Shown in pieces: positions 31,494 to 37,500 of a stretch of 43,825 nucleotides of DNA. The stretch is taken from positions 1 through 43,825 of the IMG/VR virus record IMGVR_UViG_3300036820_000332, one strand, 5' to 3'. The notes beneath the pieces are model-generated. The model saw only the letters and a program-made list of their open reading frames with translations, searched no databases and was not told where the DNA came from. How positions within the stretch are numbered: position 1 is the stretch's first letter; every line of letters starts with the position of its first letter. This DNA is from a virus. Position numbers and translations under genes: made by a program.

Positions 31494-32570
31494 ATGCGAA
31501 TCATCATCGCCTTTTTCTGTCCATGGCTCGCCTTTTTGACAATGGGCAAGCCAGGCAAAGCGTTATTCGCCTTTCTGCTGCAATGTTCCCTCATCGGATG
31601 GCCTATCGCCTTTTGGTGGGCAGTCATCTCAGGCGCTCAATACTACGCCGACAAACGCACCGATCGCATCGTCAACGCCATCAAAGAAACCCGTCCCACC
31701 GCGCCTATCTACCAGCCGATGCACGGCGTACCGCCGCAGTACCCGCCGCAAGTCGAGCAGCAATCTACTCCGGCGATCATGGCTCGATATGAACGGCACT
31801 CCGTTCCGCAGTCGCCCCAGAACGATGGCTACGAAAGCATCATGCAGCATGACGATGAGCTGGAGCGGGGGCCGCCGGCTCATACTACGCAACGCGCACC
31901 GCAGCCGCCACACCGGGCAACTCCCGAGCCGAAGCACCCTCAGAACCTCTCCGAGGTGCTCGGTGATTTTTCCATTCCCTACAAGGGGGCCGCGTTCCCG
32001 CTCCAACCTGTTAGGAGAAGCGTCGAAATTCCTATCCCGCGATTCCGCGTTCCGGCGCTCGCAATTTCGCCTGCGACGATCCTTCTCGCTTTCATCGCTT
32101 GTCTACTTCCAGCGGCGGCTGCGGAAACAGCACTCTTATTTTTCTCTCCGCAGTATTGGTATACCCCATTCCCCCACCTAATGATCCAAATACTACCAGC
32201 TCTTGCGATCGTGGACTTGGCTGTTGCCCTTGTCGTCCTGTCTCCGCTCACAGTGCATCCAAACACGCGCCGGGCAGCGAGCCTGGGTTGGCATTTTCTC
32301 GCGTCCCTCATTCTGTTCATTATCGCCATTCCGGCCTGCATCGACGTATATCGCTATTTGGGCCAAGAGGTTTTGGTACTCGCGCTTGCTGTATTCGGCG
32401 TCGGCATTTTTCCCGCCGCCATCGTCACCGAAATTCACATCGACCAATCGAAGGGTGCACTCTTCTTTCTCTTGGGCCTTGGCATTGCCGCCACGTTCTT
32501 TTGGCTCGGCCGGTGGAGTTCGAGATCGGCCGCACGACAGACACTGAATCTAACGAAGCGCATCCCGTAG
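31494..32570 (+). CDS. multi-spanning membrane protein with Pmp3/TM2-like N-terminus
   Basis: This is a 358-residue protein. Residues 1-48 form two helices (MRIIIAFFCPWLAFLTMGKP and FLLQCSLIGWPIAFWWAVIS) similar to Pmp3/YqaE or TM2 proteins. Residues 65-175 are a polar, Pro/Gln-rich linker. Residues 180-345 contain five or six further membrane helices (ATILLAFIACLLPAAAAETA and others). A strong AGGGAGGGGG ribosome binding site precedes ATG 31494. It closes the envelope block and is followed by a DnaA box and a terminator. The function is unknown. Confidence 0.65.
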   Translation: MRIIIAFFCPWLAFLTMGKPGKALFAFLLQCSLIGWPIAFWWAVISGAQYYADKRTDRIVNAIKETRPTAPIYQPMHGVPPQYPPQVEQQSTPAIMARYERHSVPQSPQNDGYESIMQHDDELERGPPAHTTQRAPQPPHRATPEPKHPQNLSEVLGDFSIPYKGAAFPLQPVRRSVEIPIPRFRVPALAISPATILLAFIACLLPAAAAETALLFFSPQYWYTPFPHLMIQILPALAIVDLAVALVVLSPLTVHPNTRRAASLGWHFLASLILFIIAIPACIDVYRYLGQEVLVLALAVFGVGIFPAAIVTEIHIDQSKGALFFLLGLGIAATFFWLGRWSSRSAARQTLNLTKRIP

Positions 32571-32574
32571 CTAC

Positions 32575-32583
32575 TTATCCACA
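32575..32583 (+). promoter_or_regulatory. DnaA box
   Basis: TTATCCACA is the perfect DnaA consensus and lies just after the last envelope gene. A second perfect copy is at 40548-40556. A single box is not an origin by itself. Confidence 0.4.
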
Positions 32584-32651
32584 CCTCCTTCCCTCGACAA
32601 TTCCCCCATCCATGCTTCAATGAAGCTACCGTGAATGGGTGGATTCGTGGT

Positions 32652-32687
32652 CAGAAAGCCGCGCCGCCACCCCGGAGCGGCTTTCTG
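32652..32687 (+). terminator. strong intrinsic terminator
   Basis: CAGAAAGCCGC (32652-32662) and GCGGCTTTCTG (32677-32687) form a perfect 11-pair stem followed by TTTC. It ends the rightward envelope-gene transcript. Confidence 0.8.
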
Positions 32688-33001
32688 TTTCAACCGCGAT
32701 TCGCTCTTTCATAGAACGCAACTGAAGACCGTCATTTCCCGATAGGGAGGAAGGCAGGAGAAGCGCTACGTGCGCACGACTTACAGGATGACCGAGGGTC
32801 GTCTGACTCCTGAAAACGCTGGGCTGCCCCCGGCTCGAAATAGGGGGCCTCGACAGGCACAGGGACGCACGCGCGCCCCACAATCCCTTTCCGCTTACAC
32901 TCGATGATAGCTCTGCATTCTATGAAATCCTCGCGCTTATAAGTTCCCCTTTACCCTGCAAAAACAGGGAAGGTCGCTACAGCTCAACGGCACAATATTT
33001 C
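32688..33001. other. intergenic region, no confident gene
   Basis: I see no confident gene here. A GTG at 32770 with AGGAGA upstream opens a 45-codon basic frame of doubtful reality. TATAAG near 32940, followed by a CCCTG/CAGGG hairpin, could be the promoter and leader of the zinc-finger gene at 33002. Confidence 0.35.
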
Positions 33002-33175
33002 ATGACAGGTTCAATGGATAACTTCTGCAACCGCTGCCGTAAACAATTCCGATCAGCAACCGGCTTCGAGCAGCATCTCGCTCGCAATATCAATCACAAG
33101 GCAGCTCCTCCGACGACAGATCGGGAGATTAATGCCATGCAGGAGCGCTACGTTTTTACGGCGCCGGCGCATTGA
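33002..33175 (+). CDS. C2H2-type zinc finger mini-protein
   Basis: This is a 57-residue protein with Cys9, Cys12, His25 and His32, spaced C-X2-C-X12-H-X6-H, within NFCNRCRKQFRSATGFEQHL. This is close to a classical C2H2 finger, with Phe15 and Leu26 in the usual hydrophobic positions. The C-terminus is unstructured. ATG 33002 or the in-frame ATG 33014 could be the start; there is no Shine-Dalgarno sequence. It probably binds DNA or RNA and may regulate phage or host genes. Single-finger mini-proteins occur in many phages. Confidence 0.6.
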   Translation: MTGSMDNFCNRCRKQFRSATGFEQHLARNINHKAAPPTTDREINAMQERYVFTAPAH

Positions 33176-33817
33176 TTATTTTCCGGCATCGTCTCATTTT
33201 TCCACTGGCATTTCCTTCAAAGGGTATACGTACAGGCATGCGCCAACATATACCTCTTGTTCGTATGTTCTGTTCGTATGCTTCCGCGCGCTGAAAGGCG
33301 CGGATTCCCTGCATTTCCGCCACCGTTCGCGCGCGCCTCCGGCCGCGACTTCCCTAAATCTTTTGTCCTCACTTCCTTCTCTCCGAGCAGGCCTATTCCA
33401 ACCTGCCGCGCTGCTGATCCGCCACACGTGCCCCGCCGCTAAAGCGCCGGTGCAGGTGTCGAGCTCCGCTTCGCGCGACAGGACAGATTTAGGGAAGTCG
33501 CGGCCGAGCACGCTCCGGTGGCGGCAGTTCCTTCAGTGATCCGTTCCGGCTGGCGCCGTCCGGCCTGCGGGCTATTGAACACGCCTCCGGCGCGTCCAAT
33601 AGTCCTCGCCACGGCCGTCCCCAGCCGGAGCCGTGCTCCGTTGCCCTGCGGGGCAAATAAGTGCCAATCCGGGGCAATTAAAATAGCGTCCGGTTCCGGC
33701 TCAGCGGCAGTCCGGCCCCAATTCGCAACACACCATAAAAATCAGGGCAGCGGAAGTTGCGCAGATTCAGCTTAGCGGTAAGCTGTAGGAAGAAATTATC
33801 AGATTAGCTTTCAGCGT
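33176..33817 (-). ncRNA. candidate large structured RNA / palindromic non-coding region
   Basis: No convincing gene fits this 640-base stretch, but it is dense in long-range pairings: 33218-33228 with 33249-33259; 33283-33289 with 33298-33304; 33340-33361 with 33485-33506; 33546-33553 with 33621-33628 enclosing 33572-33585 with 33589-33602; 33626-33631 with 33635-33640; 33641-33646 with 33651-33656; and 33768-33774 with 33779-33785. In the helix at 33572-33602 both internal mismatches are A-C on the plus strand, which become G-U pairs in a minus-strand RNA. Wobbles elsewhere are mixed, so the strand is uncertain. TGATAATTT (minus, 33801-33793) could be its promoter. An origin is the alternative. 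Confidence 0.4.
33340..33506. repeat. 22-base perfect inverted repeat
   Basis: Bases 33340-33361 are perfectly complementary to 33485-33506. After a three-base bulge, GTCCT (33365-33369) pairs with AGGAC (33480-33484), extending the stem to 27 pairs. The 123 bases between the arms contain a smaller GCAGG/CCTGC hairpin. No flanking target duplication is visible, so a transposon remnant is less likely. Confidence 0.85.
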
Positions 33818-33997
33818 ATGGAGCGACTTTGGGTTTGCAGAGAGTCAGCGTGCCGTCGTGGTGTCATCCGGTCGTACGAGGACATCGCTAATAATGGCAA
33901 TCCCTATTGCCCGGACTGTGGAACTGAGATGCAACTGACCATCGCGTCGTGCAGTCGGTTCAAGGAAGTCGTGTCTCGGCGAGAGATTGTGCTCTGA
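33818..33997 (+). CDS. zinc-ribbon mini-protein
   Basis: This 59-residue protein has Cys7, Cys12, Cys31 and Cys34 (VCRESAC, then PYCPDCGTEM), a zinc-ribbon pattern with the second knuckle CPDCG being classical. ATG 33818 has the GTATG context, and TAGCTT seven bases upstream may be a -10 giving a leaderless mRNA. The C-terminus is basic. It lies between two palindromic non-coding stretches, so it might bind their RNA or DNA; that is inference. No named family is recognised. Confidence 0.6.
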   Translation: MERLWVCRESACRRGVIRSYEDIANNGNPYCPDCGTEMQLTIASCSRFKEVVSRREIVL

Positions 33998-34001
33998 CCT
34001 C

Positions 34002-34136
34002 CGGCCTCTTCGGAGGCCGCCTAAGGAAGCTCTTTTAGGAAGCCGCACGAGTCGGCATCGGCCAGTAGGCCGACGCCGCCTGGCGTCTTCCCAAAAGAAG
34101 CTGCTCTTGGAGCCGGCTCCCTTCGGTCGCCGGCTC
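34002..34136. other. cluster of four strong hairpins
   Basis: CGGCCTC-TTCG-GAGGCCG (34002-34019) is a seven-pair stem with a UUCG tetraloop. A long stem 34028-34042/34087-34102 (14 pairs, one bulge, one A-C mismatch) encloses 34053-34063/34068-34078 (ten pairs, one A-C mismatch). GAGCCGGC/GCCGGCTC (34110-34136) follows. Both A-C mismatches become U-G pairs on the minus strand, but the UUCG loop favours the plus strand. No gene is visible from 33998 to 34167. Confidence 0.6.
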
Positions 34137-34167
34137 ACGCCGGAAGCTCATTAATCGAAACCGAATT

Positions 34168-34431
34168 ATGGAAATGAAGCTTTATTCCGTCAGCGTAGCG
34201 TACCGGGTCAACGGCTGCGTCCGCGTGTTTGCCGAAAATGAGACCGCGGCGCGAGCCAACGTAGAACAATTATTGACGTACCACGATGCTGCCGCTCGCA
34301 TCGACCATGACGGCCAAGCCGAGATACTCGACTTCTATATTACCGACGTGGAGCAGGGGGACGAAAACCTCAAGAATCTTGTGGACAGCGCGAGCGTCAA
34401 TTCCGACCTGCTAGGCGAAGATTCAGAATAG
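34168..34431 (+). CDS. small phage hypothetical protein
   Basis: This 87-residue acidic protein begins MEMKLYSVSVAYRVNGCVRV with alternating beta strands, then FAENETAARANVEQLLTYHD, and ends with an acidic tail. Proteins opening with KLYxVxVAYRVNG are frequent in phage accessory regions but have no known function. The start lies in TATG context without a Shine-Dalgarno sequence. The next gene follows after three bases, so they probably share a transcript. Confidence 0.6.
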   Translation: MEMKLYSVSVAYRVNGCVRVFAENETAARANVEQLLTYHDAAARIDHDGQAEILDFYITDVEQGDENLKNLVDSASVNSDLLGEDSE

Positions 34432-34434
34432 CGT

Positions 34435-34788
34435 ATGCACATCAAAATTGATTACGAATTAGCGAAGCAGATGAAGGACGCAGGGTTTCCTCAGCACATT
34501 GTGGAGGGTAGCTTTTATTGGATTGTGTCGCCGGTACGCAAGGCGCCGAGACGATTCTGCTGGGGCGGCGACGGTGAAGACAAACCGTACGGTGAATACG
34601 TGCTCGAACCCACCCTCGAAGAACTCATAGAAGCGTGTGGAGAGAACATTGAGGCGCTTACTCATGAGCATTCTCACGCAGGAAATTCTTGGGTCGCAAG
34701 TGCCTTCCATATCAGTGCTCATGGTCGTGGCTTGACCCCGGCCGAAGCCGTAGCCCGATTGTGGCTCGCGCTCCACAAAGGCGTATGA
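34435..34788 (+). CDS. phage hypothetical protein, paralogue of the gene at 2909
   Basis: This 117-residue protein shares YELAKQMK, PTLEELIEACGE and the C-terminal AEAVARLWLALHKGV with the protein at 2909-3229. The middle (YWIVSPVRKAPRRFCWGGDG) is an insertion relative to that copy. The start is GTATG and the stop overlaps the next gene as ATGA (34785-34788), exactly as in the other copy, so the duplicated unit may include the junction. The function is unknown. Confidence 0.7.
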   Translation: MHIKIDYELAKQMKDAGFPQHIVEGSFYWIVSPVRKAPRRFCWGGDGEDKPYGEYVLEPTLEELIEACGENIEALTHEHSHAGNSWVASAFHISAHGRGLTPAEAVARLWLALHKGV

Positions 34789-34934
34789 ACACAAAAGAAG
34801 CTGGCCGCAGGGGCGGCATCGCCCGCGCCCGCAAACTCAACAAGAAGCGCCGTAGCGAGATCGCCCGGATGGGCGGGAAAGCAGGGGGCAGGAACCGTCG
34901 GAAGGCATCAAAACGCGCCTATGGGCCTCGATAA
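34785..34934 (+). CDS. small basic KGG/RGG-type protein
   Basis: This 49-residue protein is very basic: EAGRRGGIARARKLNKKRRS, then EIARMGGKAGGRNRRKASKR. It resembles short phage or bacterial proteins of the GRRGGxARAxKL...RRxEIA type, which probably bind nucleic acid. It starts in an ATGA overlap with the preceding gene and overlaps the next by 14 bases. The corresponding gene after the paralogue at 2909 encodes a different protein. Confidence 0.6.
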   Translation: MNTKEAGRRGGIARARKLNKKRRSEIARMGGKAGGRNRRKASKRAYGPR

Positions 34935-35106
34935 ATTCTTCCAAGGTACATTCGCCGTGAGATGCGGTAATTGCCGCTATGAGGGCCGTTTGACGGTCGG
35001 CGAGCAGGATGAGACGGTTGCACACACTCCGTGCCCGCAGTGCGGCTCCCATGACCTCACCGGGTCGTTCCTCTTCCGAGGGCCGGAGCAGCAGCGATTG
35101 CTGTAG
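34921..35106 (+). CDS. zinc-ribbon protein
   Basis: This 61-residue protein has two CxxC knuckles, Cys15/Cys18 (RCGNCRYEGR) and Cys38/Cys41 (PCPQCGSHDL), about 20 residues apart, a standard zinc ribbon. Such small ribbons often bind nucleic acid or RNA polymerase. It starts inside the end of the preceding gene in TATG context, without a Shine-Dalgarno sequence. It is one of several zinc-binding mini-proteins in this genome. Confidence 0.65.
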   Translation: MGLDKFFQGTFAVRCGNCRYEGRLTVGEQDETVAHTPCPQCGSHDLTGSFLFRGPEQQRLL

Positions 35107-36146: not shown

Positions 36147-36218
36147 TGCAGGATCGTCTAACGGTAGGACACGCCGGCTTTGAACCGGTGGATGATGGTC
36201 CGAATCCATCTTCTGCAA
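36147..36218 (+). tRNA. tRNA-Gln (anticodon TTG)
   Basis: All arms fold: acceptor TGCAGGA/TTCTGCA, D arm GTCT/GGAC with AACGGTA loop, anticodon stem GCCGG/CCGGT with loop CTTTGAA (anticodon TTG at 36179-36181), and T arm GATGG/CCATC with loop TCCGAAT. The discriminator is A36218. The CCA end is not encoded; the next bases are C and then the ATG of the ATPase gene at 36220. The anticodon reads normal glutamine codons, so it does not indicate stop-codon reassignment. Confidence 0.93.
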
Positions 36219-36219
36219 C

Positions 36220-37500
36220 ATGCTCATCGGACACCAGTTCGCCACCGGCGAGGCGTTGAACCTTTCGGAGGATGACCGCGCCAGACATATTTATTGTCTT
36301 GGAATGTCAGGGTCGGGAAAAACAAATCTCATGCTCAACATGGCCCGGCAGGAGATCGAGCCCGGCCACGGCGTCTGCTTCATTGACCCGCACGGCGACG
36401 GCGCCCGTACCCTCTTGGATGCGATACCGGCCTGGCGGGTCAATGATGTCATTTACCTCGACCCCTCGGATACCGAACAGCCCATCGGCTTCAACCCGCT
36501 CGAATGCCACGACCCCGCGCGCCGGCCGCTCGTCGCCGATGGCGTCGTCTCGGCGTTTAAGCATGTCTTCGCCGATAGCTGGGGGCCGCGGCTGGAACAT
36601 TTCCTCCTGAACGCCTGCCGCACGCTCTTGGAGCAGGATGGCGCGACCTTGCTGGGCATCCCGCTGCTATTCCTCGATGCGAAGTTCCGGAAGGCGGCGG
36701 TGCGGCAGGTGCGCGACCCCGTCGTCCGCATGTTCTGGGAGCTCGAATACCCGAGCTATTCGGAGCGGCTCCTGAGCGACGCGCTTTCGCCTATCTTCAA
36801 CAAGATAAACCGGGTGCTCTCATCGCCCGACGTGCGCAACATCCTGTGCCAGCCCAAGAGCACGATAGACATGCGGGAAATCATGGATGGCGGAAAGGTG
36901 CTCATCGTGAACCTGTCGAAGGGCAGCGTCGGGGAGGGCAACGCGCATCTGCTCGGGGCGCTGCTGGTCAATGCGATCGCGCAGGCGGCGCTCTCGCGCG
37001 AGGACACGCCCAGCGAAGAGCGCCCGCCGTTCCATCTGTACGTGGACGAGTTTCAAAACTTCGCCACCGACAGCTTCGCGCTCATTCTCTCCGAGGCCCG
37101 CAAGTACGCCCTCACCCTCACGCTGGCGCATCAATTCCTCGACCAGGTGCCGGACGCCCTGCGCCAGGCCGTGTTCGGCAACTGCGGCTCGTTCATCTCG
37201 CTGCGCGTCGGTGCCGAGGATGCGCCGCTCGTTGCCAAGCATCTCGGGCTAGCGAACCCGCAGCGGGTGATGGACTTGGCGAACTACCGGGCCGTGGGGC
37301 GCTTCCTGTTGGACGGCGTGCCGACGAGCCCGACGCATCTGCGGCTGGAGAAGCTGCCGGTGCCGACCGATTCGCGTGCGGCGCAGATCGTGGCGAACAG
37401 CAGGAATACGCGGGGACGGCCGAGGGCGAGCGTGGAGGAGCGGGTGGGGCGGTTCCTGAAAGAAAAACCCCCGGCTCGTCGCCGGGGGTCATCCCATTAG
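36220..37500 (+). CDS. HerA/VirD4-type P-loop ATPase (type IV coupling-protein-like)
   Basis: This is a 426-residue protein. Walker A is GMSGSGKTN (28-36), followed by CFIDPHGDGARTLLDAIP and NDVIYLDPSDTEQPIGFNPL, signatures of the conjugative DNA-transfer ATPase family. Walker B is LYVDEFQNF (about 273-281), then TLTLAHQFLDQV. It lacks the N-terminal membrane domain of full coupling proteins, so it is probably a soluble hexameric DNA pump or helicase. The ATG lies two bases after the last base of tRNA-Gln. Such an ATPase beside a dedicated TerL suggests a plasmid-like or transfer function. Confidence 0.85.
   Translation: MLIGHQFATGEALNLSEDDRARHIYCLGMSGSGKTNLMLNMARQEIEPGHGVCFIDPHGDGARTLLDAIPAWRVNDVIYLDPSDTEQPIGFNPLECHDPARRPLVADGVVSAFKHVFADSWGPRLEHFLLNACRTLLEQDGATLLGIPLLFLDAKFRKAAVRQVRDPVVRMFWELEYPSYSERLLSDALSPIFNKINRVLSSPDVRNILCQPKSTIDMREIMDGGKVLIVNLSKGSVGEGNAHLLGALLVNAIAQAALSREDTPSEERPPFHLYVDEFQNFATDSFALILSEARKYALTLTLAHQFLDQVPDALRQAVFGNCGSFISLRVGAEDAPLVAKHLGLANPQRVMDLANYRAVGRFLLDGVPTSPTHLRLEKLPVPTDSRAAQIVANSRNTRGRPRASVEERVGRFLKEKPPARRRGSSH
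37462..37489 (-). terminator. intrinsic terminator for the minus-strand mini-gene
   Basis: On the minus strand ACCCCCGGC and GCCGGGGGT (37489-37481 and 37475-37467) form a nine-pair stem with a five-base loop, followed by a run of T (37467-37463). It lies inside the 3' end of the ATPase gene, just downstream of the mini-gene at 37497-37583. Confidence 0.75.

Follow-up and report, generated by a model that had tools for sequence, protein, structure and literature searches.

Introduction

Phages and prophages encode large, branched RNAs such as GOLLD and ROOL, whose functions are unknown and parts of which are less conserved (PMC12286853). Features of both classes are assembly into nanocages made of RNA only and a frequent location near tRNA islands. 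Retron msr-msd RNA consists of short hairpins followed by a long, perfect hairpin of variable sequence, and the put-type antiterminators of phage HK022 are RNA hairpins near phage early operons.

The locus described here is part of a 43.8-kb phage record in IMG/VR (IMGVR_UViG_3300036820_000332), the whole of which (43,825 nucleotides) is referred to as the window. The record contains terminase, portal and capsid genes and also encodes Erf and YopX. In an initial annotation, positions 33176–34167 were described as a palindrome-rich region, possibly a large RNA, plausibly of an unrecognised class, or an origin. Comparison with other phages showed that an element within this region is present in seven phage genomes. 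With modest confidence, we interpret it as a structured non-coding RNA whose family is absent from Rfam and which is encoded in intergenic control DNA where an operon begins.

Results

The region extends from the stop codon of a zinc-finger open reading frame (ORF; 33014–33175) to the ATG of an 87-aa ORF at 34168. Its minimum free energy was −440 kcal/mol on the plus strand, compared with −370 ± 7 in shuffled sequences (z = −9.6), and −457 on the minus strand, compared with −383 ± 8 (z = −8.9). When the whole window was scanned, 7 of the 13 most over-stable 200-nt segments fell within 32501–34200. The structured stretch begins upstream of 33176, with a terminator-like hairpin (32642–32703) followed by an EGFOA RNA (32705–32814). 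The minimum free energy fold of the region holds well over ten helices, in agreement with the at least ten strong helices reported initially. The ORF directly upstream (53 aa, plus strand) encodes a C2H2-type zinc finger (Pfam KIN17 C2H2, E = 5e-5, under the curated cut-off). Inside the region, the sole plausible gene is a 59-aa zinc-ribbon ORF (33818–33997, plus strand; weak Pfam zinc-ribbon matches), likely an ordinary small phage gene, and five other ORFs (62–135 aa) had no match in PHROGs or Pfam. Given the z-scores on both strands and the ORFs without matches, the description of the region as gene-poor and rich in palindromes was sound. Three tiny zinc-finger or zinc-ribbon ORFs cluster around the element in the window (33014–33175, 33818–33997 and 34921–35106).

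A terminase search yielded twelve relatives of the window phage, mostly 82–89% identical, and a terminase alignment search yielded twenty-five, together with prophage relatives in Acidobacterium metagenome-assembled genomes (MAGs). No close cultured phage was found for the window phage. Unlike the terminase, the genes at 34168 and 36220 retrieved no relatives in protein scans. Two MAGs with related prophages suggest that the hosts are Acidobacteria. The element was present in the window and in the genomes designated G001, G003, G004, G009, G016 and L120; its sequence was largely rewritten among these seven phages while the base pairing was retained. L120 comes from a different phage, which had no match in the terminase alignment search.

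The homologues were recovered by several routes. The sites in G001 and G009 were located by a local stability scan of the relatives' genomes and are clearly homologous in sequence, those in G003 and G004 were recognised by eye and folding, and that in G016 emerged when long inverted repeats were sought. L120 was recovered via a separate hairpin pattern, not via the long helix, and still has a perfect 22-bp version of the latter. Sensitive pairwise BLAST of the members' intergenic regions gave collinear, same-strand links between the window and G009, the window and G016, G009 and G001 (477 columns), G016 and L120, and G003 and G004, and no opposite-strand links. The G003–G004 pair is tied to the other members by the long-helix motif and the layout, without a BLAST match. 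BLAST of the region gave nothing against the first twelve terminase relatives and no match against phages and plasmids. An exact 18-mer of a long-helix arm was absent from the IMG/VR and GTDB genomes searched, the only members retrieved with a 16-mer (TCGGGCTATCCAGCCC) were G001 and G009, and a tail-gene profile again retrieved only these two. The hairpin pattern had zero matches in 297 Acidobacteriota genomes, and BLAST of the G016 element against 249 genomes gave a single weak match that had no corresponding long inverted repeat next to it.

Other long hairpins were observed among the relatives. Two lie upstream of HerA-like genes, on the reverse strand of L112 (19043–19202; G025, an Acidobacterium prophage) and of L101 (7560–7641; G018); these possibly represent highly diverged forms of the element and were excluded from the counts. 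In G001, G002 and G014 (L021:5649–5829, L114:2183–2364 and L094:841–1026, respectively), a perfect or near-perfect repeat encloses a tRNA-Leu-like sequence (GCGGCGTGGCGGAATAGGTAGACGC...) that was called by neither ARAGORN nor Rfam. A similar long hairpin without the tRNA-Leu-like sequence occurs at L094:8128–8304, and a distant phage (G024, L109:4704–4951) has a nested inverted repeat of very high stability whose inner hairpin is perfect over 22 bp.

The conserved core (33222–33545) comprises two hairpins and then a long helix that closes a branched domain; all features are on the plus strand. The upstream hairpin H1 (33222–33284; AACATA...TATGTT with extensions) had a local z of −4.7 and collinear same-strand similarity to G009 and G016. 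Hairpin H2 (33284–33303) reads CCGCGC-GCTGAAAG-GCGCGG, and its stem differs in each phage: relatives have CGAGGC-TAAAA-GCCTCG, CGGCTT-TCAAA-AAGCCG, CTATGC-CTCATG-GCATAG or TTGCGC-TCC-GCGCAA in this position. The linker between H2 and the long stem H3 ends in TTCCGC in four members and in TTCCCGC in G004. H3 consists of an outer helix, an internal loop and the long perfect helix. In the outer helix, CCGCCACCG (33317–33325) pairs with CGGTGGCGG (33516–33524); equivalents with other sequences are present in G009 (CCGCACACCGT/ACGGGTGCGG), G003 (CACTGTGCGTCG/CGACGCACAGTG), G001 and G004. The long helix is a perfect 22-bp inverted repeat of the 5' arm CGGCCGCGACTTCCCTAAATCT (33340–33361), which includes the near-invariant GCCNCGAC, and the 3' arm AGATTTAGGGAAGTCGCGGCCG (33485–33506), and it begins with GCCNCGA in six members. 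It encloses a branched inner domain (33362–33484) that is variable, with approximately 45 to 225 nt between the arms across relatives. A second long hairpin (33545–33629; 41 nt, 73% complementary) follows, and its tip (GGGCTATTGAACAC...GCGTCCAATAGTCC, 33569–33605), with the internal loop AACA/CGTC, is common to G016 and L120. This AACA/CGTC hairpin lies inside the long helix in G016 and L120 and after it in the window. A third cluster of strong hairpins ahead of the next gene (34012–34142; z = −5.9 for 34031–34099) had no relative. The part shown to be conserved is approximately 33222–33545 plus the hairpin at 33569–33605, and not the full kilobase of the single continuous RNA first envisaged.

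Evidence for a conserved structure came from the long helix, aligned as its two arms joined by a GAAA linker with the inner domain left out. Among the seven phages, 18 of the 22 pairs changed on both sides (0 of 500 shuffles) and none on one side only; covariation among homologues, which the initial annotation had named as its own test, was thus found. The covariation score was 0.88; shuffles scored 0.23, and slid structures, in which pairing fell to 35–48%, no more than 0.20. Of the 154 cells in the alignment, 94.8% were paired (64% in shuffles), a count that is biased upward since several members, the window and L120 excepted, were found partly via this helix. In about 1.4 Mb of lineage DNA, a helix descriptor detected six distinct sites. 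All six cleared a threshold at which the controls, reversed or triplet-shuffled, yielded no site. The sense-strand cores of all seven members folded with z-scores from −8.0 to −13.6. Since the other members carry a large insert, a covariance model built from the joined arms retrieved G003 alone. An insertion in G001 disrupts the 3' arm in the fold of the two-sequence alignment of G009 and G001.

A mobile palindromic repeat (MITE or REP-like) inserted in the phages would also have a long inverted repeat, and the order of domains does vary between phages. However, each genome has a single copy without matches elsewhere, the helix covaries over its whole length and the element occupies an equivalent genomic place, which makes this origin very improbable.

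The evidence on the functional strand was mixed. Three phages retain a G-U pair in their AACA hairpin, where the opposite strand would have A-C. On the sense strand, cUUCGg loops occur in L120 and the window, and the H2 loop is A-rich in three members. In contrast, the antisense strand folded more stably in all seven members, and several loops read GNNA on that strand. None of the 146 standard pairs in the long helix is G-U, whereas G-U makes up approximately 4% of pairs overall in the sense folds; this absence is unusual for RNA and fits a DNA palindrome or palindrome repair better. Moreover, template switching in replication can keep palindromes perfect and so mimic covariation. The poor conservation of the inner domain and the differing position of the AACA hairpin between phages likewise speak against an RNA.

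The element might instead function as DNA, with hairpins in single-stranded or supercoiled DNA that serve as a replication origin, a primosome site or a site for a HerA/TraG-like or ParB-like protein. In favour of such a site, the inverted repeats are perfect over as much as 30 bp and lack G-U; the element also adjoins HerA/TraG-like genes in G003, G004 and G016 and a ParB gene in G009, the GC-skew trend shifts near 33–34 kb, and promoter-like sites come after the element. A DNA site is harder to reconcile with the conserved G-U pair and the unequal strands of the internal loop (AACA versus CGTC) in the second hairpin, with UUCG loops on the sense strand and with inner domains branched like RNA folds, and no iteron-like direct repeats were seen. 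We consider function as DNA rather unlikely, although it is the most serious competitor. The mixed strand evidence, the lack of G-U pairs and the possible upkeep of palindromes therefore limit our confidence in an RNA to little over one half and leave about a quarter for a DNA-level element.

The element is intergenic and stands at the start of an operon, often preceding HerA/TraG-like ATPase or YopX genes. It is upstream of a HerA/TraG-like gene on the same strand in G003, G004 and G016; in G003 it follows an integrase-like ORF (L026:5520–6650, read by eye). YopX genes are downstream in G001 and L120, a small zinc-binding ORF and ParB in G009, and a row of small genes in the window, where the HerA/TraG-like ATPase gene is at 36220. 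Such a place at the operon start in most members, in the same orientation as the downstream genes, would suit a cis-acting leader of an early operon, such as a put-like antiterminator or an attenuator. However, promoter-like sites lie between the element and the operon in G009 and G003, so the element need not belong to the operon leader, and in G004 it is followed by a terminator-like hairpin; a leader is improbable. A strong promoter-like site in G009 (TTGACG-16-TATAAT, L031:13463–13490) overlaps the palindrome TACTTGCTAGCAAGTA immediately upstream of the ParB gene and is likely an early promoter with an operator. Proximity to tRNA genes, a setting that the initial annotation mentioned for phage RNAs such as GOLLD and ROOL, was not general. 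Of the seven members, only two had tRNA genes detected, the window (tRNA-Gln at 36147, about 2 kb downstream of the element) and G016 (about 16 kb away), with none in the scanned loci of G003, G004 and G009 and none by an Rfam scan of the element locus of G001.

Searches against described RNA families gave no match for the element (cmscan with all Rfam 15 families over 32560–34460, up to E = 10). The EGFOA RNA (RF02955, plus strand; 50.2 bits, gathering threshold 37.7) lies outside the conserved element, approximately 400 nt upstream on the same strand of the window, is separate from it in sequence and fold, and was not found in Rfam scans of the other members. In the EGFOA copy, GTCAT and ATGAC may form a pseudoknot, at the place taken by GUC(c)UAG and CUAGAC in the Rfam consensus; this difference would be a covarying pairing. 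A retron RNA was not supported, since the RVT_1 reverse transcriptase was absent from ten records, with a positive control, and neither was a TnpB/IscB omega-RNA (HEARO-like), since TnpB (PF07282) was absent from seven records and HEARO gave no match. Membership in a known ornate class (GOLLD, ROOL, OLE, HEARO or retron RNA) would agree with the phage origin and the large, branched fold. Yet the lack of an Rfam match at lenient thresholds and of a reverse transcriptase or TnpB-like protein rules these classes out, unless they extend well beyond what the models describe, and we give such membership almost no weight. From the initial annotation, an unrecognised structured element is therefore upheld by the covariation in homologues, whereas assignment to GOLLD, ROOL or another Rfam family and a 1-kb RNA are not.

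Discussion

If the element is a structured RNA, it would be transcribed, with a slight preference for the sense strand. The long perfect duplex would draw the flanks together and would probably be a substrate of RNase III. The GCCNCGAC duplex and the AACA/CGUC hairpin are putative binding points for a host or phage protein, and the RNA, instead of coding for a product, may serve as a scaffold or a decoy in the prophage or early in infection. More tentatively, we propose a large structured RNA with a strictly Watson–Crick helix of 22–30 bp and an exchangeable inner domain and hairpin that acts in trans on a host protein and occurs in Acidobacteria-linked temperate phages and in a phage for which the search with their terminase was negative. 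The modest confidence given to a new RNA family also covers its carriers, a group of temperate, Acidobacteria-linked phages and at least one other phage.

Such an RNA would add a well-bounded family to the large folded phage RNAs, whose jobs are unknown, and its carriers are linked to Acidobacteria, which are abundant and little-studied soil bacteria. A long helix that evolves without G-U pairs is an odd trait, and it makes function as RNA or as DNA directly testable.

Compared with the put RNAs of HK022, the element is far larger and has promoter-like sites downstream in two members. It resembles retron msr-msd RNA in having short hairpins ahead of a long, perfect and variable helix. GOLLD and ROOL are the closest known RNAs in character: like them, the element is phage-encoded, large and branched. 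It differs from them in that no covariance model matched it and in its core of approximately 320–650 nt, which is built around one very long perfect helix.
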